From Schizochytrium sp. TIO01 (lineage: Eukaryota; Sar; Bigyra; Thraustochytrida; Thraustochytriidae), in assembly GCA_004764695.1 (NCBI GenBank), contig SMSO01000031.1, forward strand, positions 4,139,048 through 4,203,047: 64,000 nucleotides of DNA. The letters are read 5' to 3'. Of this stretch, positions 28,818 to 50,408 are shown in pieces (the first letter of the stretch is position 1; every line of letters starts with the position of its first letter). The notes beneath the pieces were generated by a model that did no database searches, was not told where the DNA came from, and saw only the letters and a program-made list of their open reading frames with translations. Made by a program: the position numbers and the translations under genes.

Positions 28818-29709
28818 CACTTTGAGTTTAACCTATAAAACTCGTAAAGCTTGCATTTCCTATGTCATGTGTGGCAAATGCCCAATTGCGGGTTAAATAA
28901 CTAATCTGGGACTCAAAGTCAATTTTAAAATCATTTCCTTGGAAAAGTATCGCAAAAGGATGCGGATATTGATATCAGGATCGGCTACGTATCTGCATTC
29001 TGGGCATTGTAAAATTTTGGTTGTTCCGAGCTTGTCGTGGATGGTACCACATTGATTGCATGTTTTTGAAGTGTAATTCCCTCAGCAAAGAACCTGATTA
29101 CTCCAAAGGAAAGCTTAGTTCTGGGAATGAGCGCTTGGCGGAAGCCAATAACTCATCATTCGAGCTGTTTTACTACGGATCTGTCTTGATAACTCGTTGA
29201 CCATCTAGGAGGTTTCAAATTTCGGCAAAACGATAACACGGTAGTTTTCACAAAGCCAAAGTGCAAATCTGAGTAGTCCACCCAATCGCGGCCTATTGAA
29301 GTTGACGCAGCAACCGATGTCTTTGTAGAGGACGGAGGCATCTGGACAGCCATGCCGGAGATTGCCAATCTGGCATTTGAAATTCTCTTTTGGCTAGGGG
29401 GAGGATTCTGGTGTAGATAAATATGGATGGTCTGTGCTGCGGGTACGCTCAACGTCGTCACTTTCGTACATCCGCTTGCTTCTGGGAAAGCGCCTGCAGT
29501 GCACTTGCTGAGACGCCAAACTTCTGGTTGAGGTACTTTGCTGGCTTGTACCGTAGGTTTGTTATACTTGTAGAATTTGGAGCTTAGTCATGCCATTTTC
29601 TAACCTAAGCTTCACTTCCTAACAAAGACGAAATTATTTTAATGTATTATTTACATGAATTAGACACTAGGTACCTACCGTTTGGAGGTTGTATACGCTC
29701 TAACGTTTC
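28818..29709 (-). mobile_element. Decayed IS607-type element, copy 1, with tnpA and tnpB/Fanzor remnants
   Basis: Read on the minus strand. The 5' leader starts at GAAACGTTA (29709) and shares blocks AACCTCCAAAYGG, GAAGTGAAG and AGAAAATGGCAYG with copy 3. It is followed by a tnpA N-terminal helix-turn-helix, by recombinase sequence and, with no gap, by TnpB C-terminal sequence. The 3' tail (28862-28818) matches the tail of copy 2: GAAATGCAAGCTTT, then TTTTATAGGTTAAA and TCAAAGTG. The element is about 0.9 kb, far shorter than a full tnpA-tnpB unit, so the middle has been deleted. Several stops and frameshifts show it is dead. Confidence 0.82.
28885..29596 (-). pseudogene. Fused remnant of IS607 serine recombinase (TnpA) and TnpB/Fanzor nuclease
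   Basis: From the ATG at 29596 the frames read, in order: an HTH (AKYLNQKFGVSASALQ, like the MerR-type HTH of IS607 TnpA), a linker (YLHQNPPPSQK), recombinase residues PDASVLYKDIG and NFNRPRLGGLL (family: DIGSGxNFxRxGLxxLL), then directly CENYRVIVLPKFETS and RQIRSKTARMM (the TnpB segment before RuvC-II), then in another frame VIGFRQALI and, back in the earlier frame, TSKTCNQCGTIHDKLG with CPEC and ADPDIN. The last is the TnpB/Fanzor zinc ribbon and RuvC-III region (family: DRDxNAAxN). All four zinc cysteines persist. The TnpA C-terminus and TnpB N-terminus are missing, and there are at least three in-frame stops. Confidence 0.8.
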
Positions 29710-30051
29710 TAGAAGTACAGAAGAGGAAGGAAAAGAAAAGAAAGTAGAACTGGCATTAGCAAACGATAATGAGGCGCAAAGCCAATCGTTAATAAGGTAG
29801 GTGCCTGATGTTATTCAATGCATGTGTTTGAGTCAAGAGAGGGGTGAAAGGCTAAATATTCCCATGATTTCTGGGAAAGTCTGTCACAGATGACATGATA
29901 TGAGAAAAGTACCAAAATAATTTACTGCGAACATTTTTCATTTCCACATCGTGCAAAGGTTCAGATGATAAAGAGAAGGTGCAATACAGTCAGGCGTCGA
30001 GGATGTTCAATTCTATGTATGACGCATATCCAGTTGAATATATATCTAGAT
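29710..30051. other. Intergenic region
   Basis: About 340 nt between the transposon relic and the 3' end of the Gln-rich gene. No gene seen. Confidence 0.5.
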
Positions 30052-31905
30052 TTATTGTTGCTGCTGCTGTTGATATTTTCGCTCCAGCCATTGGTGTAAC
30101 GCTATGAGCTGCTCCCGCGCATTATCCTCGTTATTCTGGGCAGTCTGTAGCTGTTGCATGATTGCTGGGGGGATTTTCTGTGCCTGTGCAACAATGTTAT
30201 GTCTAAGCTCAAGATCGTCTGTACGGCCTGCTTCGTTGAGAAGAAGGTTTTGATAGATGCTGAAGTTTTGTTGAGCTGCACTCTTTTGCATTTGCGCCTC
30301 TTGGATCTGCTGAAAGAGGTGGTCGCGAATCATGGCCTCGTCGGGTGTAAGCTCGAACCCCTTGTCCATGCCTGAGTGCATTGCAGCACTGGATGACTCG
30401 TCTTCCATAGAACGTTGTTGCTGCTGCAATTGTTGTTGTTGTTGTTGCTGCTGCTGCTGCTGTTGTTGTTGCTGCTGAAGAAGCTGCATCTGCTGTTGCA
30501 TCTGTTGCAGCTGCTGCTGCTGCTGCCGGTGATGTTGCATTTGCAATTGCTGCTGTTGCTGCTGCTGCTGCAATTGTTGTTGTTGTTGCTGTAGTGTCAT
30601 TGAGTTCATCTGAGCAGGCTTTACAGGCATAGCACCCTGTGGGCTTCCATTGGAGCTGCTACTGTTGCTACTGTTGTTGTTGCTACTGTTATTATTTGTA
30701 GTTGTACTCTCAGCTTTGACAATATCTTGCTGCGGCTTCTTATTCGGTTTGGCTTTGGCCTTGGGTTTTGCTGCCGTAGCTTTTGCGGCCGCGGTAGTTT
30801 TATTTGCGGACTTGCCTTTGTTTTCTTGGTTTTTAGTTTCAGGTGATTTATTTGGGGCGGCAGCAGCAGCCTTTGGCGCAGCTTTGGAAGTACCTTGAAT
30901 GGTTGTCGAGGAAGGCTGTACAGGTGCTGATTGATTTGTTGTATTCATTTGAGGTTTTGTGGAAGCTGGTGCCGCTGCTGGAGCTGGAGCAGGGTTGCTG
31001 GTAGTAGCGTTCTGTGCAGGAGGTGCGGCCTTAGCCTTCTTGTTCTTGGCCGCTGCTTTGCTTGCCGTTCCCGCCGGTTTATTTGCTGTTCCTGCAGGTT
31101 TATTTGTAACAGTAGTGGTCGCAGCAGGTGTGTTCGCCTTAGCAGAACTGTTGTTGTTCGCCTTTGCATTGACACCATTTCCACTGGCGGTCCCGTTAGT
31201 ATCAGCAGCATTTTTGGCTTTATCCTGCTTGGTGTTGGTGCGCTTTGTTGCCCTTTCCTTGGTGGCAGCACCCTGCTGAGCTTTGGTACGCTTCCTTTTG
31301 GGGGCTTGTGCAGGCGCGTTGGGAGCATCTGCAGCCTTGCCTGCTTGCTGGTCCTGGGTCGAGAGGGCCTCGATGGAAACGGCTACAAGAGCATCAAAGT
31401 CAAGCTGCTGCGTTGGGTCAGGTGGTTTTTGTGTGAGGATATTAGTATTGACGGCGGCAGCAGGAGCCTCTTGTCTTAATTTCTCCTCGAATTCAGTCTC
31501 TTGTCTCAAAAGTTGCATACGCAGGTTCATGATGGTTGCTTCTTGAGCTTTGAGAGTATCTTTTGTCTTTTGATGAGCGCTGCGCTCAGCCTTGAGTTGG
31601 TTTAGCATGTCTTCAAGTTGCGCCTCCAATTCTTTCTGGCGCTCCTTTGCCCCAACGAGCTCTGGAAGATCCTTTGCGAACTTGGCCTGCATTTCTGGAC
31701 TTGCAAGGTCGACCTGGGAGATGTCTTGGTTGGTGCCTTTGGTGGCTTTGGTCCTCTGAATAAAGTTCATAAAATCCTGCGCACTGGTGCTCTTGATATG
31801 GTTGCCATTTGCCTTGCTCGGGGTTTTGCCATTGCTGTACATTTCCTCGAAAGGCGCTTCTCCCGGATTTCTCGCATCCGCGAGTGGCGATGTAGTGTTC
31901 GACAT
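30052..31905 (-). CDS. Gln-rich nuclear-type protein with a C-terminal domain shared with the 50.4-53.0 kb gene
   Basis: A 617-aa protein from the ATG at 31905. Residues 75-150 form a coiled coil (ERQKELEAQLEDMLNQLKAE). Residues 190-400 are Ala/Pro/Lys/Asn-rich and disordered, with basic patches that could be nuclear localisation signals (PKRKRTKAQ). Residues 400-510 hold Asn/Ser and poly-Gln tracts coded by mixed CAG/CAA. The last 100 residues form a conserved helical domain: HLFQQIQEAQMQK, NFSIYQNLLLNEA, ELRHNIVAQAQK and IMQQLQTAQNNE. The same motif series ends the protein encoded at 50.4-53.0 kb. The Gln-rich architecture suggests a transcription co-regulator, but no DNA-binding or catalytic domain is visible. 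The function is not known. Confidence 0.82.
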   Translation of the reverse strand: MSNTTSPLADARNPGEAPFEEMYSNGKTPSKANGNHIKSTSAQDFMNFIQRTKATKGTNQDISQVDLASPEMQAKFAKDLPELVGAKERQKELEAQLEDMLNQLKAERSAHQKTKDTLKAQEATIMNLRMQLLRQETEFEEKLRQEAPAAAVNTNILTQKPPDPTQQLDFDALVAVSIEALSTQDQQAGKAADAPNAPAQAPKRKRTKAQQGAATKERATKRTNTKQDKAKNAADTNGTASGNGVNAKANNNSSAKANTPAATTTVTNKPAGTANKPAGTASKAAAKNKKAKAAPPAQNATTSNPAPAPAAAPASTKPQMNTTNQSAPVQPSSTTIQGTSKAAPKAAAAAPNKSPETKNQENKGKSANKTTAAAKATAAKPKAKAKPNKKPQQDIVKAESTTTNNNSSNNNSSNSSSSNGSPQGAMPVKPAQMNSMTLQQQQQQLQQQQQQQQLQMQHHRQQQQQLQQMQQQMQLLQQQQQQQQQQQQQQQQLQQQQRSMEDESSSAAMHSGMDKGFELTPDEAMIRDHLFQQIQEAQMQKSAAQQNFSIYQNLLLNEAGRTDDLELRHNIVAQAQKIPPAIMQQLQTAQNNEDNAREQLIALHQWLERKYQQQQQQ

Positions 31906-32580
31906 GCTGATCGTCAGCTTTCCTTCTAGTTCTAATGCTCCCTTTTACAGGCCAAGCACCTCTCGCTCTCTGAAGCACGAAATCCACAATGTACTGCTGT
32001 GACTACTGCACTAGGCGCACTTCTTCCACAACTCCTCTGTATTGACTACTCTAAGCAATTAGATAAGAATGACCACTTTAAAACGAACACAATTGTTCAA
32101 AGAACGAAATGAACGAATTGAGAAAGAAAAAAAAAAGGGAATAAGAAAAACTAAACAAACAAAGCGAAACGAGAGCAGAAAGGAGCTTGAAAGCAATCTA
32201 TATAGCGCTGCAAGTCTGCTGATCCTTGCCGCTCTTTGTCCAGGCCACTGACGGTCTGTACTGCTTTGCCTCAACTCTAGCCTCGGAGCTAAGAAAGCAG
32301 GTCGCTAGTTTTCTTGTGCTCTCTTAATCCTTCTACTACTACTGCTTCTGTTTCTTTGTCTCGGGTAATACTGCCGTCGCTCACTATTGAATTAATAAGT
32401 GCTGTGTCGCGGTGACTACGAAACGAAACCACGCTCGCGGTTGCGAGTCTTGCGTGCGTCCTGGCGTTGGGCTTCGGTATCCTCTAAGGCCCAGTATGCA
32501 AGCGCCAAGATATCCAATGCAAAGCAGGCTAGACTGCTGCGCAGGCGTGTGGGTGCTGTAGTTCGTGATGGTATTGACGA
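31906..32580. other. Upstream region of the Gln-rich gene and start of the gene-poor island
   Basis: Promoter and 5' UTR of the Gln-rich gene (31906-32100), then sequence without credible frames. Simple repeats begin at 32581. Confidence 0.5.
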
Positions 32581-32582
32581 CC

Positions 32583-32620
<38 letters not shown>

Positions 32621-33365
32621 AGTAGCACGCGCGATGGATGGGCCAATGGCAGCGAATGAGTCCGTGCGAAGCGGGTGGCGGGAGCCGGGCTGGGCACTAC
32701 GTGTCTTGCGAGGTTCTCGGTCCCAGCTGCGTGTGCGTACGAGCGACTGCAGAGAGCCCCTCGGCTCTTGCGCGTTGCTGTTTCCGGGCGAGCAGCGATT
32801 CTTGTCTGGTCTTCAGCCAGGACGCCCTCGCCCACAAACAGCGAAGAGAAAGAATAATAAGGAAAGTGAATAAAAGTAAACAGGAAATTCAAAGACAGAG
32901 GAAAAGAAGAAAGACTCTATTGCGACGGTACCTATGGAAGGAAGAAACATATTCAAAGTGAGGCGCTGTTTACTTGCATGTTCAAAGACCCTTCCAATTC
33001 AAATTAAATTTAATTAAATTTAATTAAAACTACAAATATCATCATCATTGTTCATGTATATATATATATATACATAATATATAATTAAATACAATCAATT
33101 CTCGCGTCGAAAACTGCTGTACGTACGTACGTACCCAGCTTTAAAAAAATTAAAATTAAAAAACAAAAAACAAAAAACAAAAAAACATTCTTTAAAAGTA
33201 GAGGTTGCTTGTATTTGAAGCATAATAGAGACACCACCCTTCGTAGTGAAACCTCAACTTGCGAGTTCTAAGAATTAGCATTACAAGAGGTCTAGCAGAA
33301 GCAAGTTGATCTCTGCCTGCACACCTCGCTCGTTTCCTTCAAGCTCACGCAAGCAAGCTAGCTAG

Positions 33366-33398
<33 letters not shown>

Positions 33399-33598
33399 AA
33401 GCCTTAAGCAGGAGCATCACTCGCTCTCAACCTCCTTGCGGGCACAGGCGCACAATCGAAAGCAGCGATTCCTCTGGATGCTCATGAGTGGTCCATCCAG
33501 AGTCTCTTCGCGCCATTACAATGAGGAGGCGAATCACAGGTAGGGAGCTATAGGCATCATCCATTCCTGCTTACTTAAAGGCTCCTTCTTTCTTTCTT

Positions 33599-33678
<80 letters not shown>

Positions 33679-34926
33679 TCGGGCGCTGCTCAGAAGAAAA
33701 GAAAGAGCGAAAGAGAGAGAGAAAGAAACCTTCTCGGTTAATCAACGAAGATGACCAATAGCCTGCTCCTCTGACTGGCCGTGGTCCCGTCGGCAGTAAA
33801 GGCTCCGGGCACATGGCTTATACGCAGCAGGCGAGCTTAAAGACAACGAATGGTCTGCCCATCAGGCAATCAGCAGGCAATCAGTCAATCAATCAATCAA
33901 TCGATCGCTTATTTAATTAAACAAGTACGCACTATTCCTCACCAAAGCTCCTGAAATGCTCGCTGCTTTTTCTTCAAAGTTTTCTCCTTTTTTCTTTCTT
34001 TCTGAATTAAAAAACAATAATTTTAAAAAGTCAGCCTGAGTTAGATTATTCTTTATCAAGTTTCGAGGAGTTGACTCTGAGTGTTAGAAAGAAAGGCACT
34101 TTGTTTCCTCCTCCCTGTGGGGCCTTTTTTCTTTTCTTTCTTTCTTTTCTCCTTCTCGTAACCATCGACAGACACTTGCTCCATGCTCATCAGAAGGGCG
34201 GCCAAGGCGATTAAACACGCATATAAAGGTGCGCAGAAGCTGGCAAGCCCGCAGAAACAGGCGTGTGCTGCGATTTCTTTTCCTACTTAACTGGTGGGCG
34301 CAGCGTTTAGTATAGATAGGTAGGTTCTCTCTCCCTACCTGGATATTCGTTTAGCAGCCTTTTAAAAAATCCGAGTGCTATGCATTTGTTGTTAATACTA
34401 CTAATAGTAGTATTTGCGTTCGTTCGTATCATAGCAATGATAAATATTTATGGATCTCTCCTATGATGGTTGGGTTTGAAAATTAAGAAAACAAACCCTT
34501 CTAAGGTCACGAACCTCTTTTTCATGCAAAAAGTAACACCATCCATACCTAAAGCTTAGTTTTTGACTTGCCAGCACAATCGATCCCTCACCAAAACAGG
34601 CGCGTACACATGTTAGGACTACCTCGGCACTACATACATACGTGGGCCCCTACCTTCGTCCAAGCAAAAGAAGGCAGCAAGAGCTCTCAGTCTTCGAATG
34701 CAATGAATCGCCCACCAATCCGCACCTCTGCACCGTAGTCCTTTTCCCTATGCGGCGAGGTCAGGTCAGCGCTTCAGGATGAGAACCGCTCAAGAACATG
34801 TGTTCAAACGATACTCAGTAAACCTAGCTAGCTATCTACCTATGTATGGCATGTATGTATGTTTTGTAGTTTATTATCTGGGATCGAACATGCACAGAGG
34901 AGGTCAGAGAGAGAGAATGAGATAAT

Positions 34927-34965
<39 letters not shown>

Positions 34966-35636
34966 TGATAAAGAAGCGAAGAAGCAGAAAACTCTTTCTT
35001 TGCGTCATCAATAATTAGTTAGTTAGGAGGAGTTAGTTTGAAGAGCCTCTTCACAGAAAGAAAGCTGTTGCGATCGCTGGACGGAGAGGCGGCCGAGGAG
35101 AAGGAGGGCGAAGAAGAGGACCAACGTGAGAGGGGGCAGCGCGTACGCAGAAGCCGTCCTGTTTGTTCTCCTCTTCGGCCGCCTCAAAGCTCTGTGCTCC
35201 GCCTGAAGGTTCTACTTATTGCATGTGTTATCTGTGTTGCCTGTGTGTTGTATGTATTCTCTCTGTATCCATCAAAACTCGTGCTTCCTCCTCTTTTTGA
35301 ACATTTGCCGCTCATTTTAACTCAACTCCTCCTTCCTTCCTTCCTTCCTTCCCTAAACAGTCTTCATTCCATTAAAAGATAAAATGGTATTTATAACTAA
35401 CTAAGCGCAAATAACTCGGCAAAATCTGTTTATTCGCTACTAGCTCAAAAAACAAAGGAGGAAAAAAGGAGGAAAAAGAGAGAAAAAAGGGAAAAACTTA
35501 CTTATCTTGAAACTAAGACGCCGAGAAGAAAAAACCTAACTCCATAGTGATTGTTAGGAGGACTGACCAAAGACAAAGAAGCAAGCGAACACTGCGATCG
35601 ATGCCAAGGCCAACAGCGCAGCAGCACGCCGGATCA

Positions 35637-35668
<32 letters not shown>

Positions 35669-35738
35669 AAAGCCGCAGCTGATTGGGGTATTCGCTCAGG
35701 CTTAGCGGCCGTCCTTCTCGCCGGGTCAGACTTCGCAG

Positions 35739-35771
<33 letters not shown>

Positions 35772-38740
35772 GCCTTGCGAGGCCTGGCTGGAGCCCCTTG
35801 TTCGCGGCTGTCGATCTGGCTAGGTCATCCATCTTATTTCCCCTCTTTCACTCAATTCCACTAAACCCTTCTTTCTCCTCTGAAAACCTTGCTTTCACCA
35901 CTTTGTTTCATTCCTTTTATCTGTTTATCTTTTTTTTTATCTTTTTTTTTTTTTTTTTAAATTAAAATTAAACTTGTAGCAAGCGAATAACGAACTAGAG
36001 TTTTGTTTTTCTTAGTCGAGCTGAAATAAGAAGAACTAGGTAGCAGTAGTCGAAGTTTTAAAGAATGCATTTTCGAGAGAGTTCGAGTTCATTTATTGTG
36101 GTTGGTTCTATTGCCTAACGATTCGGAGAGAGAGCACACTCTGTTTTCATTGTTTCTCTTTTTAGCTATGTATCTAGGTAGGCCTGTTCCAATTCATTTC
36201 TGCCTGGGGTTTCACCAACGTTTTAGAAGGCAACCACATGATAAAACGTGGGCATACTGTGTATGTATGTATGTATGTATGTATGTACGTACGCATGCAT
36301 ACATGCATGCATGCATGTATGTATGTGATTCTGTGCCGCCGCTCTCAGAGTTTCCTTCGCTCGCGCTTATTTGCCGTTTCTTTTTTCACTTCTCTTTGAT
36401 GGGTAGATTGGTTGGTCGGTCTGTTGCCCTTCACTCAGTATACATACATACATATACATTCATACATGCATGCATACATACATACATGCATGCATACTTA
36501 GCTGCTTACTTACAAACTTATGTATTTGCCTACCTATTATCATTGCGCCTCTCCGTGTTTTTGCGGATGTAGCTGAGAGAGAACCTGTAACAAACATCAT
36601 TATCTGATTGTTTCGTTTATTTGTTTTGCTTGCTGTCCCCCGTTCTTCCAAATGGTGCCTTCTATTTCTCCATTTTCTTTTCTCATCCTTCACCCTTTCA
36701 GCGGTCAAAGGTGTCGATTTGTTAACCACTGTGGCGCCGCTCTCTTTCTTTCGCTCACTCTCTCCTTCTTTTTCCTCTTTTCCCTCTTCTCCTATTTCCC
36801 CTTCATTTCTTTTTTCTTTTCTTTTTTCTTTCTCTTCTACCGAGCGATCTCGATTGCGGAAAGCCGGGAGAGATCCCTCTGCCTTCTCTCCTTCCTTCCT
36901 TACGCGGGGCCGCCCTCTGCTCTGCTCCCACTGCTCTAAGCAGACCAAAGTCCTGTGATGCTGTCTGTCTGTCTGCCTGTCTGCCTGCCTTCTTTCTGTC
37001 TGCCTTCTCTGCCCGTGAGGTGAGGTGAGAGTGAGTATGGTTTCACTTCTCTGGTGACTGCGTTTTATTCATTCTCTTCGAGTCACTCACTCACTCATTC
37101 GCCTTCCTTTAAATTAAAGAGGCGCCTGCCTGCTGGCCTTAATTAAAACTTTCATTCCTTCATCTCCTTTGCACAGCTTTGCATCGCTTCGCTTTCGTTT
37201 CGGCCTCCGTGGCTTGCGATTCGCTGTGTGCTCGCCCAGGCCCCTCCTGTCTGCTGCCGCACTGGCGGGCTTCGCTTCGGATGCCCGCGACGGTTCTGGC
37301 CTTTCTGCCTGTCTTTGAGCCCGAGGATCGAAGAATCGATCCAACCATGGAGATCTAATCTACATCACAGGCACAATAGAGTGAGGTGAGGTGAGTGTAG
37401 CGACACTGAGAGCATTAGGCGCCGCTACTGCGGTGGTAGTGAGTAGGGCTCTCTCTGTCACCCTTCTTATAAGTATCATTTCTTTCTTTTCTAACTTTGA
37501 TGTATTGTAAAAGTCATCATGAAAAGAGTAGCGAAAACAATCTTAAATGGAGCTGCTGGTACTAGAAGCTGTTATCCAGGTAGGTAGGTAGGTAGGTAGG
37601 TAGGTGGGTGGGTCCTACCTACTACTGCTGTGCTAGCTAGCTGGCTCGCTTCGTTCCCAGGAACCCGCACTCGCCACGCTGTGCTCGAGCCTTCTTGGGA
37701 AAAGACGTTCAAGATGGCTTCCGGTCGAATCCCTTGGATCTTCGACACCGACGCAAGCTCCTTTGCAAAGAACCACCAGCCCTGATCGTGTTCTGGCTGA
37801 TCCCGAGAAGATCGACTATCCTTCGCAGTCCCAGATCCTACTTCTTGAAACGACAAGAAAAGCACAGGAGCAATGATGGACAGACTTAAACACACACACA
37901 CACACAGCAAACTAGACTTCTGACATCCATCTCATGATACGTATCTCATGACCAGCTTTTTCATCGCCATGCAATCAAGAAGAACCCAGTCGATGCCCAA
38001 GTCTCTCGCAGTTCCTCATTCCTACTCTGTTCCAGCTTATGCGATTGATTCCCTGTAATAACGTGTGTCTGCTTCTTTGGTGCTATCGTTTTTCTCCATG
38101 CGAGCCGCTCAAGCGCTGGGCCCGAAGAGCTTAGAATGGAGAGAAGAACCTCCTCCAGAACGAAGTTTGTTTCATGAATTATTTGCCCCTCGCTTGCGCG
38201 ATGTACTTTCGCCTTGAAGTTTACCCGGTTAGAAAAATCTGTGCTTTGCACCATCATTTAGAATAAATAAAAAGTAAATATCAAAAAAATAAAAATAAAG
38301 ATAGATTGAGGGAGTGAGTGAAAGCAGAGGGGTTGCGGCGGGATACTGTGGAGGAAGAAAGAGGCGGGCAGGAAGGCCGAAGAAAGTCGGGTGCTCGTCC
38401 CTCATTGCCTCATTCTCTTTCTGGACGGACGGCTTTTCGTTCGAGGACGGCTTCGGGAACATCCTTCTATTCACCTCGAGGATCTCACTTCGCTTTATGG
38501 TCTTTCTGTCGGGATTGAGCTATAGCATGTCTGAGAGGTTGCCGGGCCAGTTTTATGTTTTAAAGCTAAATTTTCAAAATCAAGTTTCCCAGAGCTTTTC
38601 TTTTCTCTTCTTTTCTCCTCTTTTCAGTTGCAACAATAATGCGCCTGCTAAATGACGAACTGTGTTTCAGCCTCTATGGGGAACAGCCATTCCCACTTTT
38701 TTTTTCTCTTTCTTTTCTGTCGAAGTACTGAAGAAGCGGT

Positions 38741-38772
<32 letters not shown>

Positions 38773-39331
38773 TTTTCAGTTCTACCCGTATACCGTAAAA
38801 TTAGATTTCTTTAATTTATAAAATTATCACAAGTAAAAACAAATGATTAAAAAATGAATAAACAACAAACAGTATATATTAGAAATCGTAAAGAACAGTG
38901 ACTATTTTCTTGAGCCGCTTTTCTTTTACAAATATAAATATTGCAGTAGTCAAAAAGTACTCTCGAGCCTGGTTTGTCTTTTAATTAAACCTGCGCTGAT
39001 TGCAAAGCCCCGAAGTCCTCCTTACAGTGAATGAGTGTGAGTGAACGAGTGAACGAGTGAATGAGTGAATGAGTGAGTGAGAGAGTGGGCAGGCCTTCTC
39101 GAAGACCCCGCCCTTCTTTCGCCAGAGAGTTTCGGGTTTCCAAGGCTGCCTTATATGGCCCATGTGAAGCCGAAAGCCCTCGAGGCGTTCTCCTCAGTAA
39201 GTTAGTGAAGCGAGTGAGTGAGTGAGTGAGTGAGTAAGTCAGTCAGTAAGTCAGTCAGCCAGCTTTCTTTCTTTCTTTCTCTCCTTCTTTCCTTCTTTCC
39301 TTCTTTCCTTCTTTCTTTCTACGGAGTGAGT

Positions 39332-39393
<62 letters not shown>

Positions 39394-41059
39394 CCAATCA
39401 ATCTCCCTCTCCTTTCTTGAGTCAAGCTCCTTGCTTCCTCGCTTTGCTTCCTTCTTTCGGTCTTCTGATACACCCTCTCCTGTTGACTTGAATGGGCAAG
39501 CGGGTCGCCGTTCTCCGTAGAGTCGCCTTTCTTTCCCCATGTCGCAAATCCCCAAAAGTCCCAGCTTCTCCATCTCATTAAGGAAAAGAAATGAAAAGAC
39601 GTCTTTAATTCTTCCTCTGCTTCTTCTTCTTCTTATTGTTATCATTGATCTTGTTCTTGTTGTTCTTGTAAAGAAGCTGAAAGCTGTATAAACATAATTG
39701 GATTGAGGGATCATTAGCGGCAGGACAACATGGAAGTGTGAAGAGCGCGCTGCATTCCCTCCTCCCTCGTTCTCGAGAAGCTGACTGGCCCCGCAGAGGT
39801 GGACTACCCACCGTGTACCCACAGCCTGTGCAAGCGTCATGGATGGGAACGGTAAAACAGACGCTCTTCTGCCCTACAAGTCGTTCTCTTTTGCCCTTCT
39901 TGTGCGCGAGAATTAAGTCAGTCTCGTCATCGAAGTCCTTATTCCTGCTATTTCCCCCCGTTGCTGCTGATGATGCCCACACACCGGATTCTTATTGGTG
40001 CTGTTGTTGTCATCACAAAACCACAAACAAGCCATGAATGGACCACTCGTTGCGCTGGCAGAAGCCAGGAATGAAGGACCTTCGGCCCAGTTTCGTGCAT
40101 GCATTAACCATCTATGGTCTTGATTATTGCTGTTTCTCTGTTTCTTTTTTCTTTTCTTTTTTAATAGGAGACTTATTGTACTTTAAAAGTGAATCGTTAT
40201 TTTTAAAAGCAAGGGCAATAAATCATTAAAACTCTAATCAACTATACATATGGGGTTCTTCCAAGTATTTCTAAAACAACAAAGACTCTGTTTGAAGCAC
40301 TTGCGTTAGTTAGATCTTGTTTAGATCTCGTCGTCTCCAAGTCCGCACGTATTACGCCACAACAAGCAGTTAGTCAGTAGCTAGTCAGTTAGCTAGTTAG
40401 TTCACTAGTCGGATAAATAAGAGAGAGAGAGAGATAGTCAAAGGTCATAGGGCTGTAGTGAATTAATTGGCTGTAATTTGTGAAACCGCTTCTCTGTCAA
40501 CTTGGATATCCATGCGGATACTTATTTTGCTTGTCGAGACCTGCATCCACAAGCTGTGAGACTATTCTCGTTTTATCTCCTCCTCTTCTTCTTCTACTTC
40601 TCGTTGTTGGACGCGCCCATAATAATAAGTCCGCTAAACAGGCACTCTTGGCTAAACGAAGGACGGATGCCTCCGGTTTTCAAGAATAGACCACCTTCAA
40701 CGTTTAAATGTGAAGAGGCGTTCTCTCACTCTCACGAGTCAGGTAACTAACACTAACTACTCCACTTTATCAGGAGCACAAAGGTGAGTGAGCGAGACAG
40801 GGCTGGGCTCGTTCTAACAGGAAGATAGATACCTAGTGTCGTTAGGAATTTTAACTTATTAATAATTAATATAATATATAAATAAGTGCAAGCATAGCTT
40901 TCTTTCATTCCTTTCTCTTTTCTCTCTTTGTATTATTACTTCTGTTATTATTATTACATACGCATGTATTTAAGCTTTCGCGTCAAAGCCTGCCTTTCTT
41001 CTTCTATTCCAGCCATGAGGTCCTCTCTTAGTTACAAGGAAAGCATTCTCATTGGATCC

Positions 41060-41099
<40 letters not shown>

Positions 41100-43408
41100 C
41101 TTCCTTCCTTCCTTCCTTCACCCTTCCTTCCTCCCTTCCTTCCGTTAAAGCCTGCTATCCAGAACATTCACGAGAGCAGGCCCGAAGAACAGGCAGCACG
41201 TGGCCTCTCTCTCAGCCAGCTGTCGCTCTCTCTCCCTTAACCCCTCATCGTAGAGCCCACCTAGCCACCCATTGGTTCAATCCAGTTAGTTGTATTGCGA
41301 ATATTTCATACACGGTATTCATTCATCATACATGCATTCATGCATATAAACCATGCGGACGTACATATAAAGTTTGAGTGAGCACATACACACATACAGG
41401 CAGATAATTTGCTTATAGTCCTCTATTTTTTTATTTATTTTTTAAACAAAGTTTTAATCTTAATTTTTAAGTTTAATTTTTAAGTGAGTAGGCCTACTCT
41501 GATGCTTTAAAAATATATATTACAAAATAACTCAATCGATTAAAAAATGAGAAACAGGACGAATCCACCCCGGCCAGAAAAGAACGAGGAGGCCGGCGAG
41601 TAGCTAGGAGGGAAGCTCGTCGCAGCTAGCTTAGTGTTCTCTGGCCTCACGAAGGCAGCGTTATTCGCTCCCAAGCAGAGAGACTGTGGCGCCGCTGCTG
41701 CTCGAGCTATTTTTATTTTTGTTTTTGAAGTGCCTGAGCCCCAGCTTTGCAGCCTCACTCTCGAAAATATGGTTCACCTCAAGTTCTCAATCCCCATTAC
41801 CTAAAAGAAGCCTGAGCTGAGTTTTCTTACCCCGGCAGGTATCTATCTACCTAGCTAAAACCATAGAGGAAGCAAAGCAGCAAGCAAGCAGGCAAGCAAT
41901 CATCAGTTTGTTTCCATTTCACCCCCACACCTCCCCGCAGCGGCAGTACATGGAAAGCTGAGCAGCGCAGAACAATCTCCGGAAGGGTAACAGCCCTTCC
42001 TTCCCTTGCTCTTGCTATTTCGCTTTTGCTCTTCCGCTTTTGCTCTTCTGCTCGCTTTCGCCTGCCTTTGCTTGCGGAGGCCTCCCTTGGAGCTGCTAAA
42101 GTCTCCTCCGGCCGGGTCAAAGGCCTTCCCCCCCGGCTCCGAGAAGGCAATCGACGCAACGCGCGATGGATGCGACGCGGCTGTCGATCCGACGAGCCAG
42201 GCTCTAAAAGCACTAAGAAGGAGAAGAAAGAAAGGGGAACAGAGTGAGTGAACAAGTGAATAATAAGTGAGTGTGAGTGTGTGAGACTGAGTGGTGAGGG
42301 AGCGAATGAGTGAGGGAGCGAATGAGTGAGGGAGAGAATGAGTGAGTAAGAGTAAGTGGGTAACTAACTAGCTGAGTGGGGAGAGAAATGAAGACGGATG
42401 AATGAATGAATGAATGAATGAATGAATGAATGAATGAATGAATGAATGAATGGAAACAACTTCAGGAACACCAGTGATGCGAGCCAGACGGAATCACCGC
42501 TCAGGGTTAGTTAGCTAAAGTATGCAGGTACTCCTAGCTAGCTGTAGCTAAGCAAGCTAAAGGTATTTTTCCTTTTCTCTTTCTCGTTTTCTGGTTTTGA
42601 GTTCCTGTTCCAGTACCGGTCGCTTCCTTCTTTTGTTTCTTCTGCGGATAGACTCGTTTGATTAGAAAGCAAGTAAGCTAACAAGGAGGCAGGCAATAAA
42701 AGGAGGCAGGCAAACAGGCTGGCAGAACAAGCACGAGAACAGAACGGGGGGTAATCGTCTCTCCAAAAAGAGCAAGAAGGAGAGGAAGAAAGATAAAAGG
42801 CCTTTGCGTTCTCTCCCTTGATTCTATCAAGTGAGTCCCGTCGTTGCAAGTTTCCCACTGCGCTGCGCCTGTCGTCCATCTTTAAAGCACTAAAAGTAAA
42901 CAAAAACTGGTCTTCACGATAACATTAATCAATTAATTAATTAATTAATAATTTATTTATTTATTTATTATAGTTTATTATTATTATTATTATTATTATT
43001 TAATAATGAACAAAGTTTTTCACCAGATGAGCCGGGTAGGTAGGTCCCGCTAATACCCTGATACCGCCTTGTAACCAAAGAAGATCACGACATCGACGGC
43101 ACAGAACTGTGTCTCCTATTGTCGTCAAGAAAAAGTGCGCAGGAGGTAGTAGGAAGAAAGACCGCACCAGAGGAAGCATCGTGGAGCTGGCGGAAAGAAA
43201 GCATGCATACCTTCTTTCGTCTAGGTTTAGCACAGGCGGGCGATCCGAGCAGAGCAGGGACGCTCGAGGCCTTTCATTACCGTGGCCCTCTCTTGCTTCC
43301 TGTCGTTAATACTCTTCTTCTTCTCCGTCTTCTGCTTCTCCGCGGCGGCTGCTGCTGCTGCCTGTGCTGGTTGAGCGAGGAAGTTCTTCTAATAAATCTG
43401 TTTTTCTC

Positions 43409-43463
<55 letters not shown>

Positions 43464-44100
43464 CTCTGCTTTTCTCTCTCCTTTTCTCTTGTTGTGATAG
43501 GTATGCTTGTTTTCCCACGCCTCCACAGTGCCTTCTCGCGGCTTGTTCTTTTTGGTCTCTCCGTGCCTACAGAGAGCCTCTGCCAGACCTAGCCCGCCCT
43601 AACCCACATGACATACGTCCCCTCTCGCAGCTTTCACGGAAGTGAGGGGAGTGTGTTGCGGTCCGTCGTCGGCCTTTCTCCTGCAGGAGTGGCGGTCCTA
43701 CGTATGGGTAACACTAACCGTAAGAGTGCCCGGAATGCCTGCCCTACTGCCAATTCCCCTTTGTTTTATTTTAAAATATTAACATTTTTCAAATTATATA
43801 TACATAGCAAGAGTATAGTTTTTTTTTCTCTCTCTCTCTTAATCTCAGAAAAATAATCAGACAATAAATTGAAAAGACTGGGGCTAAAAAACAAAATGAA
43901 GCGCATTGAATAGAAAATTTTACATTTTTCTCTCTAAATAAAAGATTCTTCTGAGGATTTCAAAGGTTGTTTTGATTGCTGAGAAAATAAGGTCCGCTTG
44001 ACTGCTACAAACGTACTTTGGCCAGAAATTGTCTGCGCTGTGGCGGTCATTTTGAGTCTTTCCAGCTCCTCGCGAAGGCTTCGAGCTTTGCGTTCTTTCC
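32581..44100. repeat. Gene-free island dense in microsatellites of many different motifs
   Basis: No credible gene in 11.5 kb. Tandem runs seen include (CAA)n 32582-32619, (TA)n near 33060, (CTGC)n 33365-33397, (CTTT)n 33586-33680, (GA)n 34930-34957, (TTCC)n 35333-35352, (GGCA)n 35638-35667, (GTCT)n 35740-35767, (TATG)n 36260-36290 and related CATA/TGCA runs to 36500, (GGTA)n 37578-37606, (AC)n 37892-37906, (TTTC)n 38742-38771, (GAGT)n 39030-39085 and 39212-39235, (AATC)n 39332-39402, (AGC)n 41064-41097, (GAAT)n 42398-42452, (TTA)n 42973-43002 and (TTTC)n 43407-43464. Open frames across them are low-complexity artefacts. Confidence 0.85.
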
Positions 44101-44110
44101 TGCATTACCC

Positions 44111-44775
44111 ATGAAAACGTTACAACTTCTATCATGATAACCTCAAATGGTAGTGACTGTTCCAGATAAATGGTATACATATGATAATTCTATAAGAAGT
44201 ATAGGTTTCGTAAGAAAATGGGATGGCCAGGGAACCTGGCCACCAAATCCAAACCCTACAATGAAGCAAACATTTAATTCAAGATTTCTTGCATTCGGCT
44301 CTGCGTAAAGTACAGGGTTATCTTTTGCCTAAATGTGAAAGCTCAGCAAGTTAACAAGAAGCTAATGAGTTGGATCAAAAATCAAGACAGCTCGAATGAT
44401 GTGTTGTTTGTTGGCTTCCGACAAGCGCTCATTAAGAAAGCCGAGGATTCCCCCCTGCGACTGGTGTAAACTAATTATCTTCTGAGATGAGACGATTGCA
44501 CTTCAAAGCCATGCAATTAATGTGGTACCACCCACGACAACCTCGGAACATCCAAGGTTCTCAAATGTCATACCAAAAAATGCCAATACGTAGCCAATCT
44601 TGATATCTATATACGCTGCCAGAGGCATCAAGCTACGCTACCTATCCAAGGACATGGTTGAAGAGTTGTCTTTGAGTCGCGGGCTAAAAGCTAAGCCGCG
44701 ATTGGGCCTTCGACCTGCTTTGCAACCATATATGAAATGCAAGCTTTGCAATTTTTATAGGTTAAATTCAGAGTG
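44111..44775 (+). mobile_element. Decayed IS607-type element, copy 2, internally deleted
   Basis: The 5' leader begins ATGAAAACGTTACAACTTCT and ends in the tnpA start context GTAAGAAAATGG (ATG at 44219), as in the other copies. The tnpA body is almost absent. Sequence resumes in the TnpB C-terminal region at about 44340. The 3' tail at 44731-44775 (GAAATGCAAGCTTTGC, then TTTTTATAGGTTAAA and TTCAGAGTG) matches copy 1 base for base over most of its length. At about 0.67 kb it is the shortest of the three copies and looks like a non-autonomous derivative. Confidence 0.8.
44340..44662 (+). pseudogene. TnpB/Fanzor-type nuclease C-terminal remnant
   Basis: Frames on the plus strand read IKTARMM, then FRQALIKKAED (the TnpB helix after the conserved SKT motif), and after a frameshift TSKPCN, a stop in place of one residue, CGTTHDNLGTSKVLKC, KKCQYVANLDI. 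This is the zinc ribbon plus RuvC-III neighbourhood of TnpB/Fanzor. The spacing between the cysteine pairs is enlarged by two residues. Closely similar sequence in copy 1 (TSKTCNQCGTIHDKLG) shows they come from one family. At least two stops and one frameshift make it non-functional. Confidence 0.8.
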
Positions 44776-45810
44776 TTAAGTAGCAAAATGCGCCTCGGTA
44801 CTACCTTCCACTTTAAGATATGAGTTGTGTTACTCTCTACTTTATGTAGAAGAACGGTGCTTACAGCACATACGCTGAAAGTAGTTGTCTCGTTACAGTA
44901 CTTTGCTTGTTTGATTGTTTGATTGTTTGATTGTTTGATTGTTGCTGCTGCTGCTACTGCTATCGTATTAAAGAGATCCATGGCGGAGAAGGCGCCTGTA
45001 GGAGTCCTGGCTTTCAGAGACGATGGCGGTGGCGCTTTCCGTAGTCTGCAGAGGAAGAAGCCGCAGACGAAGTAGCTGCAAATGGCTATTGTGTAGCTGA
45101 CGGGGGGAGAAAGTCAACAATCAAAACGATTAATTTAAAAAAAGCTTGTTTCTTTAATTAAGCTTTTTGGTTTAAAAAAATTATTTATAATTAAAAAAAA
45201 AAAAAAAAACTCTCAACTACTGATCAATCTGCCTGTTGAAGAAAGTCAAGCAATTAACCACCTCGCCCAATCAGCCCAAGGACGAACGAAGGAACAGAGC
45301 GTACGAAAGGTGAAGAGAAGGTCAATTCGGACGAGTAAGAAAACTGAGGGATGCGATTTCCCGGCGGCGAGCTTCAACTTGGACCGCGCGAGCATCTTGC
45401 GGTGCCGATGTGCCATCATCGTAGAGATCTGTTTGTTGCTCTCCTTTCCTGCCTTCTTCTTACCTTCTTGACTTTATCTCGTTTCGAAAATTGGAAAATA
45501 TCTTCATCTATTGTTACTTTAACTCTTTTCTTTCTTGGCAGGTACTCGTAGGTAGTAGGTATAGGGGCCTGATTAATCCATTTTGAAATACGTTCTTGCT
45601 TACTTTCATTACGCAAAATGAACCCAACCTCGAGCACGTGCGCACAAAAACACTTTTGATTAATATTCTTAATTACCATTTAATATTTTTATAATCTATT
45701 TTTTTTAATACCCATATGATCATCGCGTTATCTCTCTCTCTCTTTTTATCCAAGGAAGCGATTTCATGAAAGTGGGTGGGTGGTAGGCAGCCCCTACATA
45801 CTACTACTAG

Positions 45811-45841
<31 letters not shown>

Positions 45842-46848
45842 GCTACGACGCAAAAAGAAAAAGAAAAAAAAGACTTCGAGGGCCTCGAGGGAAAAAAACG
45901 CAACCGCTCTGTGGCTTCTGCCGGCTTTCCTTCGAGCGGGCGGCCGGCGTGCGCCCTTGCCAGCGCCGCTGCCGGCCACGCCTTGGCCTCACGGCGAGGC
46001 GTCGCTGGTGCCGGCTCCAGAGGGATATTCGCGCTCTCCGAACATCTGGCCTCCACTCCGCAAGTACCGGCCCAGCGGAGCACCGCAGAGAAGAGCAGAG
46101 CAGAGCAGAGCAGAGCGATAAAAGAATGCCGCGTGAATGAAACCACGATTTTTCAATTGTTCCTTTTTTTTTTTTTTTTTTTTTTCTCCTTTTTTTCTCT
46201 CCTTTTTTTCAAGATTAAAAAACTGCAGGAAGAAGTTTAAACACTTTCTTCTTTCATTTCTTTTAATACTGTAGAAAGAAAATGAAGAAGAGTGGGGTTT
46301 TATTTAAAGGTAATTTTGAGCCTTCGCTGACTGTGGCGATGCAGTATAAAGATAGATAGGCCTACGCAGGGATAATAAGAGGAAGGAAAGGATTGGAAAC
46401 TTGAGGACAGATCGCAATAGGGAGGGCAACAAATAGGAGAAGAAGAGCTTTGCCGACTGACCGAACGGCGCTGCCTGCTGCCAGCGAGTAAGCCTTCGCG
46501 CAGACGGGGCGAGGAGTCTCAAGGCGAGAGCCTGAGGAGAAGAAGCCTCGAGGTCGCAGGTCCTCCTTAGCTAGCTAGCTAGCTAGCTAGCTAGCTTGAT
46601 TGAGATAGTCGCAGCCGGAGCTAGCTAGCTACTTTTAAAGTCAGCTTCAGACAATCGTCCATTGAAAGCTCGCTCTGGCAAGCAGAACGAAGAGGCCTTG
46701 GCAGTTCGTGCCGCATTGTAAGCGAGGCCCATTCTCTTCTTGCGTGCGTTTGTTGCTTGCTTGCTTACGTGCTTGCTTGCTTGCTTAGTTGGCATCTACT
46801 TTTCGTTGGGGCTGTCAAGCATGAGCGGATGAACCACGTGAGGTACCT
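44776..46848. other. Gene-poor stretch with simple repeats between two transposon relics
   Basis: Contains (GTTTGATT)4 at 44908-44941 followed by (GCT)n, poly-A near 45195, (TTC)n 45818-45842, (GAGCA)n 46096-46118, poly-T 46166-46187, (AGCT)n 46568-46598 and CTTG runs near 46752-46790. No believable gene. Confidence 0.7.
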
Positions 46849-46958
46849 ATGAAAACGTTGGAACTTAACCTCCAAATGGGACGTATGTTTCATAAAGCCT
46901 AAGTGATATATTATAATGACTTAGGCCTTTTGTTGAGAAGTGAAGGCGAGGTAAGAAA

Positions 46959-47575
46959 ATGGCACGCCGAAGGAATCACCAAGCTCCAAACACTACAAGT
47001 GAAGCAAACCTTCAACGCAGGCTAGGAGCAGCTCGATAAAAGCGTCGGTGTCTCGGCAAATACACTTCAGGTGCCCCCGGCAGAGACATGCGCATCACAT
47101 GTATTCGGGGGCCGCAATCAACGCTGCACTCATCGTACAATCATCTATGCCAGAGTGCCCTCTGCCAAGCAACAAGAAGGCTTCGAACGCCAGATTGATG
47201 ATCTTCAGAGTGCATATGCAGACGCATCCGCCGCCTACAAAGATATCGGTATCAGAGGCAACTTCCTGTAAGAGCGGCGGAGTTGGCCAGGTTGTGGTCA
47301 TGCACCGCAACCGACTTGCGCGAGTTGTCATCGACCTCCTTGAGCAGCTTGCCGAAGAAGAAAATGGCAAACTCGTGGTACACGGCCAAAATGTGTATGC
47401 CGACGACTCCGACACCTTTACAAGGGACCTCCTTGGAAATCACCACCGGCTTTCTGGCGTCGCAGCAGCATGGAAAACAAGCAGCGCAAACTATACGGCG
47501 TCAACGCAGCAAGGAAGAAGCGAGCGTGCGTGAAGGCACACAAGACGACCAAAAAGGAGTGCAATTTAGTTCGTG
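46959..47575 (+). pseudogene. IS607-type serine recombinase (tnpA) pseudogene
   Basis: Broken plus-strand frames give, in order: SVGVSANTLQ (HTH recognition region), FGGRNQRC (family: TPGGHRRY wing), TIIYARVPSAKQQ, FERQIDDLQSAYADASAAYKD and IGIRGNF (family: ARVSSxKQ...LERQ...DIGSGxNF), then in a second frame GGVGQVVVMHRNRLARVVID and LLEQLAEEENGKLVVHGQ (family: GDVxxVVVxxRDRLARF...ELIEQLFEEFGxKLVV), then in a third frame LASQQHGKQAAQ (family: F-x-SRxxGKRxxx). The catalytic Ser of the ARVS motif is replaced by Pro. At least two frameshifts and a stop are present. In living copies this enzyme excises and inserts the circular intermediate. Confidence 0.85.
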
Positions 47576-47677
47576 CATAGAGGATCCGCGTCTATCCAAC
47601 GTAAGGCCAGTGCAACTCACTCAGAAAGTGGTTTGGCGTTTCCAAAAGAGCTTACAACGTCGACGTTGCCTTTCATT

Positions 47678-47947
47678 ATGATTTGCAAAGGTAAAAATAA
47701 AGTCGTGGCCCTGTATCAAGATACATGCGTTAGGAAGGATCCTAAAACGCTTCAAATGCTGATAGACGAGAAAGGTGATCCTAAAATCTTCGGCGATAGC
47801 TATGGAGAAGTGAAAGTAGTACGCCTTAAAGAAGCTGTGATCGCTCCTGATTGGGTCTTCGAAGTACCACAAGCTGTGCGCAATCCAGAGATCGTTAATA
47901 TTTTTTCGAAGCTACCGATTTTGGTCAAGGCAAAAATGGGAATTTGA
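47678..47947 (+). CDS. Small ORF inside transposon copy 3, unknown
   Basis: An 89-codon frame from the ATG at 47678, open in frame from 47573. The peptide (for example KNKVVALYQDTC, GDSYGEVKVVRLKEAVIAPD) has ordinary globular-protein composition, unlike the repeat-derived frames around it. It does not look like TnpB or TnpA. It lies between the tnpA remnant and the 3' tail, where tnpB is expected. It may be cargo, a captured host-gene fragment or unrecognisable TnpB N-terminus. Whether it is expressed is unknown. Confidence 0.4.
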   Translation: MICKGKNKVVALYQDTCVRKDPKTLQMLIDEKGDPKIFGDSYGEVKVVRLKEAVIAPDWVFEVPQAVRNPEIVNIFSKLPILVKAKMGI

Positions 47948-48030
47948 TGTCCAAAAGGAAAGATGCCATTCGCTCTTCTCGCCCCACGTCAACATAGAAA
48001 TCTCAAGCGTTACAACTTCTATAGGTTAGT

Positions 48031-50408
48031 TACTAGGCAATTTACCTAGTAGGTACCTACTGGTGCATATTTCTTTTCAAGCACTAGTAAATTATACATA
48101 AAGAACTCCAAATAAAATGGCTTTGTATACCTCCACCTCATTCGTTTCATGCGGGTCCTGATAGCGAGGCAGTGAGTCCTTCGATTTGGCTTCAAAAGCA
48201 GCGCAGGACCGACCTCTGCAAAGGCCTGTCTGGGATGGAGTCGCGCTGCGCAGCTGAACGCGGATGCCTCGCGTGGAGCCATCGCTGATGATGTCTAGGA
48301 TTGCGAGAGAAAGGCCTTTTCTTCGCCCTCCTTCTTTCTTTGCTTTCTTTCTTTCTGCTTCTTTGGGCCTCATAATGATCCTCCTATCAATTAATCTTAA
48401 ATAAAGAAGTTGGCTTTTTGTTTTTGTTTTTGTTTGTTTTGCTTTTAACCTCTTCCTGTTTATTTTCATTATAAGTTAGTTTATAAAACAGTTTTGAACA
48501 ATAAATGGAAAGCTACACACCAACCACCTCCTTGATGAGTAGAACCAAAGCTTCAATTGACCAAGTTTTTTTATTTTAATAAATCAGCATAACTTCTTGA
48601 GCTTTGATCTCCGTTTCGGTGCTGTGCCAACAAGATTTTTATTTCCGTTCTGCATGCTCTTTCTACAGAAAGAATGAAGACACCTAGACCAAGATTCTAT
48701 CTTCTTTCACCTGAAAGTCAAAAGTGTTTTCTCCTTCAGAGGAAATCCCGAAAGATGGATCAGCACTACTTTTTCACTTTTCTCTTTCTTTCAGCCGCCG
48801 CTTTCCTCATCTTTTCTAATTTCCGTATTTGTGAAAGAACTTCCACAAAGTGTGTCTACTTTGAACTGAGGGTCCCCACAGGAGTCGGCGTGTGTACTGC
48901 GAAGTCACGGCTGGTTGCGGACCCCAGTGGGAACTCTCGCTCGCGCTTTTATCATTACTTTTTTTCTTTTTTTTAAGTACTTTATCCCTCTTGTCTTAAA
49001 ACAAAAATATAAAAAAAAAATATTAAAAAATCTGCTCTTTTCATTCCATAACTAACAATAATAACAACAACTGAAATAAATATTACGTGTTCACCACCTT
49101 GATAATTTACCAAATAAATAACAGAAACTATTTTTTTTGAAGTTAATTAAAATAATATCTACTGATAAAGTACTAAGAAGCATCAACGACTTTCAGAACA
49201 TTAGCGGCAGGCTCTCGACAGCCGAACGACGGTCTTTGTACAGAGCAGTGCGAGGAAATAGCAAATAGAAAGGGTCGAATGATAGGAGAGCCGTGGCGAG
49301 GAGAGTGCAGAGGCTCACATGATAGAGTAGAGAGTAATCTATCCTCTGTTTTCTTTCTTTTTTAGCCATCCATCCATCCATCCATCCATCATGACTCTTC
49401 TGCATGGGTACCTTACCTACCTAATTAATACCTAGCAGTGCCTAGTGACAAATAGAGTGAGCTCTTTCTTGGTGTTGTTGTTGTTGTTGTTGTTGTTGTT
49501 GTCTTCTCTCAAGCTAGAAGAACACAAAAAAAGGTTGTAGATAGGTAGGTGGTTACTACCTGGCCTAGCTTATGCTAGTTCTGCTGCTTGGAATTACGCT
49601 TTTGCTTATTGCGCGTTCTCATCATGCGAACCAGATCACACAGCCACCGAGTATTACAGTTAGTCAAGTTGTGTTTGGAAGGTCCTGAACCCTCGCATGG
49701 AGTGACTGTTTTGATCGACCACACTGTCATTGTCCTTTGGTCTTTGGACAATCAACAATTGCAAAATCAACCCTGTAAATCCCTTCAAAGTGATTGTTAC
49801 TGGCAATCACATACACAAAACCAAGTTGACGCTAGAGTTGAGTGAGATACGAAAGTGACAGTGAGACATCGTCTTAGACTCATTAAGATTCTCTTGGTCC
49901 ATTTTCAGCATAACGTAGACAAAAAAAATAACACCAGCAGGCCACAGAAAATAAACAGGGTCGGCAATTCAACACAGAACAGTCTCCTGCAAGTTTGTAT
50001 AATGAGTGCATTCAATTCTACAAGGTTCACCATCTTTAGATAATTTTTTTTTAAATTTGTTTATAATAGTAAGTTGTGTGACGTAAATTCTGGAGTGCAG
50101 TCATTCGAGTATATATACTTTCTACTACGCAGCCGCACATACATACATATATGCATGGGCGAAATCGGAATTTGGAATTTGGAATTTGGCCTTTCAACTT
50201 TCGGCTTTCAGCAGAAGATAGAGTAAAAAGGAATTAGGTAACGATTCATAAAAGTCTTTGTTTACTGCAGCAAATATCTTTCCTTGTACGCTGTCGCCCA
50301 CGTTTACACACCCAAACAAACTTTTGTTCAGAATGGTAGGTTGCGCAATGGCTTTTCATGACGACAATCAATGGTATACATATATATATTTGCCATTCTC
50401 AACATTAC
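48031..50408. other. Gene-free right end of the microsatellite island
   Basis: Holds CTTT runs near 48338, AT-rich sequence 48980-49160, (CATC)n 49366-49390, (TTG)n 49473-49502 and TAGGTAGG near 49540. No coding frame with recognisable features. The last 100 nt are the 3' UTR of the next minus-strand gene. Confidence 0.6.

Follow-up and report, generated by a model that had tools for sequence, protein, structure and literature searches.

What kind of mobile element left three short loci within 20 kb of one another on a 64,000-nucleotide stretch of Schizochytrium sp. TIO01 DNA (contig SMSO01000031.1, positions 4,139,048 to 4,203,047; hereafter the window), and do complete copies survive elsewhere in the genome? 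A sequence-only reading had taken these loci, here called A, B and C, for relics of an IS607-type element, with pieces of its serine recombinase TnpA and of its TnpB/Fanzor nuclease, in a protist nuclear genome. Our analysis agrees, based on tblastn at the loci, PF07282 at A and PF00239 at C: A, B and C are very probably defunct copies of a DNA transposon of IS607 type that carries Fanzor2 in a thraustochytrid-like nuclear genome, spread by the mechanism proposed below.

The relatedness of the loci was assessed by local alignment, with shuffles of two-base blocks as the control. The full loci aligned with one another beyond shuffles, as the earlier reading had expected, with scores of 219 for A–B (maximum of 200 shuffles 29), 81 for A–C (30) and 55 for B–C (32). 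A common leader and a common tail had also been claimed. The tails held for all three pairs (69, 37 and 33; maxima of 500 shuffles 28, 26 and 22) and the leader held for A–C (57 against 26); the leader of B on its own is borderline, because A–B scored 26 (shuffles 28) and B–C 29 (27). The copies lie on both strands with unrelated flanks, again as proposed, and the 300-bp flanks of A, B and C showed no likeness beyond shuffles in any of six comparisons. The two short motifs singled out earlier have two exact matches each; allowing up to two mismatches, the first has three (1.5 by chance, reached in 20 of 100 shuffles) and the second five (2.3 by chance, 6 of 100). Short motifs alone are weak and insufficient as proof of relatedness.

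Using the TnpA and TnpB frames of young, complete copies (described below) as tblastn queries, we obtained E-values of 4e-20 (TnpA) and 8e-31 (TnpB) at A, 2e-41 and 8e-43 at C, and 7e-13 for TnpB at B, where the TnpA scrap reached 0.47. The best match of the reversed proteins was 0.016, and two weak extra matches of the TnpB frame appeared in the window (6e-4 at 52155 and 0.002 at 31194) when low-complexity filtering was switched off. Chance similarity of the loci was ruled out by these reversed queries together with the shuffled alignments. Profiles were then scanned against stop-free pieces of A and C, the pieces of B containing stops. The TnpB/Fanzor zinc ribbon claimed earlier was recognized at A, where the piece 28929-29078 scored above the PF07282 cut-off (34.1 compared with 26.3 bits), and the serine recombinase at C, where one piece lay just above that of PF00239 (23.8 compared with 23.3 bits) and two pieces matched NF033518 at 1e-6 and 1.5e-6, under its whole-protein cut-off. 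The genome-wide PF07282 search includes A, and that with PF00239 includes no place in the window.

The layout of the loci refines the earlier description of them as dead copies (Table 1). In A, TnpA residues ~20-144 are fused to TnpB residues ~541-662, with the join at 29271/29270. The right end is clear in B and A (nhmmer E-values 1e-22 and 5e-19) and decayed in C (0.008). Judged from this layout, all three are IS607 elements with internal deletions that retain both ends.

Table 1. Positions of the relics and their parts in the window
Feature	Position	Strand	Content and evidence
Locus A	28818..29717	-	IS607/Fanzor element with internal deletion, shared-deletion (N) group; tblastn, junction read
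A, TnpB/Fanzor C-terminal part	28929..29270	-	tblastn E 8e-31; three stops
A, reRNA scaffold (predicted) and right end	28818..28930	-	nhmmer 4.7e-19
Locus B	44111..44775	+	Shortest relic; leader, TnpA-start scrap, TnpB residues ~546-662, right end
B, reRNA scaffold (predicted) and right end	44658..44775	+	nhmmer 1.1e-22
Locus C	46848..48039	+	Old relic; TnpA mostly kept, TnpB to residue ~353, remaining TnpB deleted, right end decayed
C, TnpA serine recombinase relic, multiple frames	46929..47561	+	tblastn, PF00239, NF033518 pieces
C, TnpB N-terminal part	47446..47914	+	tblastn, layout

Living copies elsewhere had been suggested. Complete, closely similar copies were indeed found, and these may be active. 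Genome searches gave 71 pieces with the DNA of locus C (from the best 40 of 135 candidates), 34 matches to PF07282 and 27 to PF00239. Among 19 joined stretches longer than 4.6 kb, 18 hold copies of a young family of ~2.2 kb, 89.7-100% identical to a reference copy, and the 19th is an old copy of 68-80% identity. The order in a young copy is TnpA, an overlapping TnpB frame and a structured right end; 16 of the 18 span the element, one is without the 5' part and one without the 3' part. Both TnpA (232 residues) and TnpB are open with all signatures in eight copies, TnpB is open with TnpA truncated or absent in six, and TnpB is broken in four. Neither frame was intact in two older copies checked alongside. 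At least two more young-looking places lie outside the 18, namely a fifth copy with the inserted tag described below and a young-type right end at contig C30:8395858. One young copy sits within the left-end leader of an old relic (contig C13:5817367-5822098; L025, L052), and two further ones (L023 and L032/L055) adjoin old relics.

The young TnpA scored above the cut-offs of the IS607 profile NF033518 (144.7 compared with 110 bits, model match at residues 38-221; the whole protein of a young copy was tested here, not the window relics) and of PF00239 (72.3 compared with 23.3 bits), and its sequence matches the catalytic domains whose structures are solved from ISC1926, ISC1904 and IS1535. The young TnpB passed both PF07282 (50.2 bits) and PF12323 (37.1 bits). 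It carries DPG (RuvC-I) and, after 145 residues, a glutamate six residues ahead of CxxC; DPG with a glutamate displaced to six residues before the zinc finger is the Fanzor fingerprint in the relevant passage of PMC10711439. The reference young copy fails a published Fanzor2 search pattern with two CxxC pairs, its second pair being Cx4C, and fits once Cx2-4C is allowed; the pattern is a search aid, not a definition, and the second pair is CxxC in A and in an old copy (L056).

Substitutions among 17 young copies were counted as one change per site and base by simple parsimony. The TnpB region has 156 changes, 69 of them synonymous compared with 43.9 expected (reached in 0 of 1000 draws), and one new stop compared with 6.8 expected (as few in 6 of 1000), and these counts indicate that purifying selection acts on TnpB. 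Change density is lower in the TnpA region (43 changes in 616, 18 synonymous) than in the TnpB region (156 in 1273, 69 synonymous). If counted from the first ATG in the scanned range, at 1613, the TnpB frame has 549-570 residues; in ten young copies it is open for 661-682 codons, across the entire TnpA gene in its +1 frame. Such openness arose in 116 of 20000 synonymous shuffles, and translation of a second product from the +1 frame across TnpA was not supported by the substitutions, which showed no constraint there (11 synonymous compared with 12.4 expected; no new stops compared with 2.1, as few in 119 of 1000 draws). Splicing at a GTAAG upstream of the TnpA start was rejected, the site being ATAAG in some young copies.

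Downstream of the TnpB stop, young and old copies alike are predicted to form two hairpins, a third hairpin and a loop-to-end pseudoknot, in which the loop CUUAG would pair with the right-end CUAAG. From 46 right ends at E <0.01 we removed six short or weak ones and five duplicates; 35 were aligned and 28 counted, the seven most broken being left out. Paired cells made up 97.0% of 460 in 14 young rows (slid controls 34-48%) and 83.3% of 359 in 14 old rows (30-52%), a comparison in which the structure is favoured because it was drawn from the same rows. The pseudoknot cells were paired in 95.2% of cases in young rows and in 76.9% and 84.6% in old rows, and A forms four of its five pseudoknot pairs, one by a double change from A-U to U-A. 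With the 3' letters shuffled, the covariation score of the young rows was reached in 4 of 500, and single-sequence folding of two young rows beat shuffles (z -3.6 and -5.3). The modelled RNA has a pseudoknot adjoining the presumptive guide, as in Fanzor2. At one place (L081; contig C13:5078933-5079023 on the minus and 5079063-5079184 on the plus strand) two right-end stretches stand back to back with ~40 bases between them.

The ends of the element point to its crossover site. Old right ends read CTAAG-TG, with the final TG in 29 of 36, and young-type right ends CTAAG-AG, with AG in all 18, one of them an older relative. On the left, 14 of 28 old copies have TG at a single fixed position (at most 4 of 28 at the other positions printed), and CAG occurs within 12 nt in 14 of 17 young copies compared with 4 of 17 in the preceding 12 nt. 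This suggests that the left flank and the right-end crossover dinucleotide changed jointly, the latter from TG to AG. GG, the crossover dinucleotide of the IS607 prototype, was not found in this role. When 12 joined flanks were searched, 26 matches were obtained: the own flanks of insertions accounted for 24, and the other two were paralogous empty sites of one insertion, matching its flanks over 315 bp (84%) and 463 bp (79-80%). The empty site reads ACA-A-TAATATT and the insertion copy ACAG, element, then TAACATT after CTAAGAG; therefore, there is no repeat longer than the dinucleotide. These two sites, from one of the 12 insertions, fit an AG crossover without target duplication.

The family is far larger than the three loci first noticed in the window. 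N junctions, marking an old shared deletion, were found at 28 places with up to three mismatches and right-end cores at 73 (controls, reversed for the junction, gave none), so that the genome holds at least 88 right ends, and counting either of the two markers gives at least 104 places (the search including the best 40 of 127 candidates); 12 of the 28 junctions lie no more than 900 bp from a right end in the list. When 15 relics selected by their tblastn layout were aligned, 14 had one common junction, and A had a further small deletion across it. Across 19 N copies, identity averages 0.76 for the interior, 0.735 for the RNA and right-end region and 0.64 for the leader, and our reading of these figures is one old burst that has probably decayed evenly. 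A functional TnpA–TnpB fusion in the N copies was considered and rejected. Read by hand, the junction does not continue the TnpA frame but does continue the open +1 frame; because decay is even, no function is claimed for the fusion.

A second class without working TnpA is young. Five copies have one common 294-bp insert in TnpA, all 100% matches, of which four were read; the insert has ~40 matching places including these five (the best 40 of 130 candidates). Copies of its repeat family are often paired ~5.2 kb apart, for example at contig C30:2475451/2480607, C5:1442679/1447873 and C7:1132787/1137982, and by analogy we infer that such pairs resemble the long terminal repeats at the ends of retrotransposons. 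The insert is without GT-AG boundaries, and an intron was rejected. Because five young copies share it, the TnpA-less copies seem to have moved in trans. Strong clustering of copies was also rejected: within 5 kb there are three adjacent right ends compared with 0.6 expected (48 of 2000 draws), within 25 kb six compared with 3.1 (178 of 2000) and within 50 kb 12 compared with 5.9 (22 of 2000), which is mild. A tRNA-Ile gene (anticodon aat; L038 2882-2955, minus strand) separates two old copies whose left ends face each other.

Taken together, we propose the following mechanism. TnpA would excise and insert the double-stranded element by serine-recombinase exchange at a matched dinucleotide, presumably AG in young and TG in old copies, without target duplication. 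TnpB would use the right-end RNA with host flank as guide, against targets beside a target-adjacent motif (TAM) that is CAG-like for young and CTG-like for old copies, and may cut copies of the site from which the element has gone, with repair then copying it back. Copies without working TnpA, whether of the old shared deletion or of the young tagged group, probably moved in trans. More tentatively, the transposon may be active now with selection mainly on the Fanzor: copies with dead TnpA and an open Fanzor, including the 294-bp-tagged group, would spread in trans, and the Fanzor would be more than a passenger, being kept for the element's own multiplication by cutting empty sites under RNA guidance.

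Several observations weigh against the main mechanism proposed. In TnpA the excess of synonymous changes is not significant (18 of 43, compared with 13.3 expected; 69 of 1000 draws), and HTH_17, MerR and MerR_1 reach E-values of only 0.011-0.017, under their cut-offs, with the region of the putative N-terminal helix-turn-helix included in the NF033518 match. The young TnpB stays under the cut-offs of PF01385 (19.7 of 30.5 bits) and of guided_TnpB NF040570 (94.4 of 100). For the RNA, besides the slid controls already qualified, the covariation score of the 14 old rows was reached by 48 of 500 shuffles, and folding of four old rows, A and B included, was not clearly above shuffles (z -0.6 to -1.7). 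At the left end, half of the old copies are without TG; the dinucleotide is TG (just outside) in A, AT in B and GG in C. Upstream of CAAAAAACG in young copies (e.g. L028, L016 and L021), close copies disagree in the 3-8 bases that separate the CAG motif from the element core; even at 99% identity the stretch from CAG to CAAAA is not constant in length or composition, which a strict dinucleotide model leaves unexplained. Perhaps alternative AG crossovers taking up flank bases could explain these ends. Finally, the target dinucleotide at the empty site is deduced, because the paralogues have diverged (79-84%) and read AA where the insertion copy has AG.

Could TnpB instead of TnpA drive the young spread, the Fanzor cutting homologous sites and repair copying the element, so that TnpA-dead copies multiply? 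The selection signal is clear on TnpB and not on TnpA, six of the 18 young copies keep TnpB without working TnpA, and a single TnpA insert is common to five copies. However, cut-and-copy requires an allelic or homologous site, and in the four tagged copies read the flanks differ, on both sides in three and on the left side in the fourth; a search with three tagged copies turned up no flank in common, apart from old relic pieces belonging to other copies. Insertion at unrelated sites needs a transposase, which the eight copies with open TnpA could supply in trans. We therefore consider this alternative improbable, and that the many N copies persist as a working guide-RNA reservoir for the Fanzor is more doubtful still: the genome has at least 88 right ends, young ones included, compared with open TnpB frames in 14 of the 18 young copies, and A keeps a pseudoknot pair through its double change, but in the 19 N copies the RNA and right end show no higher identity than the interior, as for neutral decay. 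Bacterial contamination or an integrated virus in place of a resident nuclear transposon is least credible of all: IS607 elements are frequent in prokaryotes, and Fanzor2 elements also occur in large DNA viruses (in the part of PMC3627910 that treats them), but the 88 right ends are spread over 13 contigs, each 1.1-9.8 Mb long, some young copies are situated within or next to old ones, families such as glutaredoxin, aldehyde dehydrogenase and EF-hand were recognized in five of ten large window frames, and the viral (IMG/VR) scans, which may omit records near this genome, gave no relative by single sequences and two non-Fanzor TnpBs by alignment.

The host genome comprises 64 Mb in 37 contigs, the window lying on one of 9.8 Mb. 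It contains a frame for a PfaA-type polyunsaturated fatty acid (PUFA) synthase whose central segments are repeated (1157 bits compared with a cut-off of 1010), which points to a thraustochytrid; to our knowledge, such genes mark thraustochytrids among eukaryotes. The Pfam families of the window frames are tandem glutaredoxin, aldehyde dehydrogenase, two EF-hand proteins and an EsV-1-7 motif. One frame (20588-21937, plus strand) has thioredoxin and three glutaredoxin stretches and is presumably PICOT-like.

The 2023 paper showing that Fanzor is an RNA-guided nuclease calls its biological role unknown, in the passage that addresses it (PMC10432273). With complete similar copies, TnpA-dead copies that keep an intact Fanzor, a naturally occurring sequence tag and a crossover rule that can be read, the present family makes that role testable in a native host, supplies a nuclease with a predicted TAM and guide RNA, and raises the question of whether Fanzor retains or multiplies the element.

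Among relatives, single-sequence patterns, which were poorly placed, found none in IMG/VR or GTDB contigs, and the alignment-based IMG/VR scan found two TnpBs with the ordinary, non-Fanzor signature. One IMG/VR contig (L085 1802-3750) has an IS607-like TnpA, judged by eye, and a TnpB with that ordinary active-site signature. A report of this family was not found among the papers listed by the literature searches, which is not proof of absence. IS607/Fanzor2 elements are already known in protists and giant viruses (ACa-1, ACa-2, CRv-1, ISvMimi_1, ISvMimi_2, ISvAR158_1 and ISvNY2A_1; Bao and Jurka 2013, PMC3627910), and the stramenopiles in the table passage of that paper are Pythium, Nannochloropsis, Phytophthora, Albugo and Ectocarpus, with no thraustochytrid named in its text. 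By its sequence, the present element is of this known IS607/Fanzor2 kind, carried in a eukaryote.

As in the elements described in PMC3627910, a serine recombinase TnpA accompanies Fanzor2 without terminal inverted repeats or target-site duplications; unlike in those descriptions, there are here several complete similar copies, two TnpA-less classes at many sites, and ends in AG or TG, not GG. The IS607 prototype, as outlined in PMC6188088, likewise is without terminal inverted repeats and target duplication and exchanges over a 2-bp identical sequence, but its target is GG where ours appears to be AG (young) or TG (old). The GG crossover is described for IS607 and ISXfa1 in the relevant passages (PMC6188088, PMC10711439), which do not show it to define the whole family. 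ISXfa1 and the pro-Fanzor IS607 elements in PMC10711439 share with ours TnpA, TnpB, a right-end RNA and a fixed right-flanking base, and pro-Fanzors share DPG with the displaced glutamate; ISXfa1 differs in its GG crossover and GGG motif, in place of the probable CAG-like or CTG-like motif here. Among sequences of solved structures, the best match was the mimivirus TnpB-like L79 (PDB 9b0l; 2.5e-18), whose TnpB core also begins well inside the chain, at about residue 114, and which is distant, with 28% identity in the C-terminal alignment. The predicted right-end fold, three hairpins and a pseudoknot, is as published, in the parts that describe it, for IS607 TnpB and Fanzor2.

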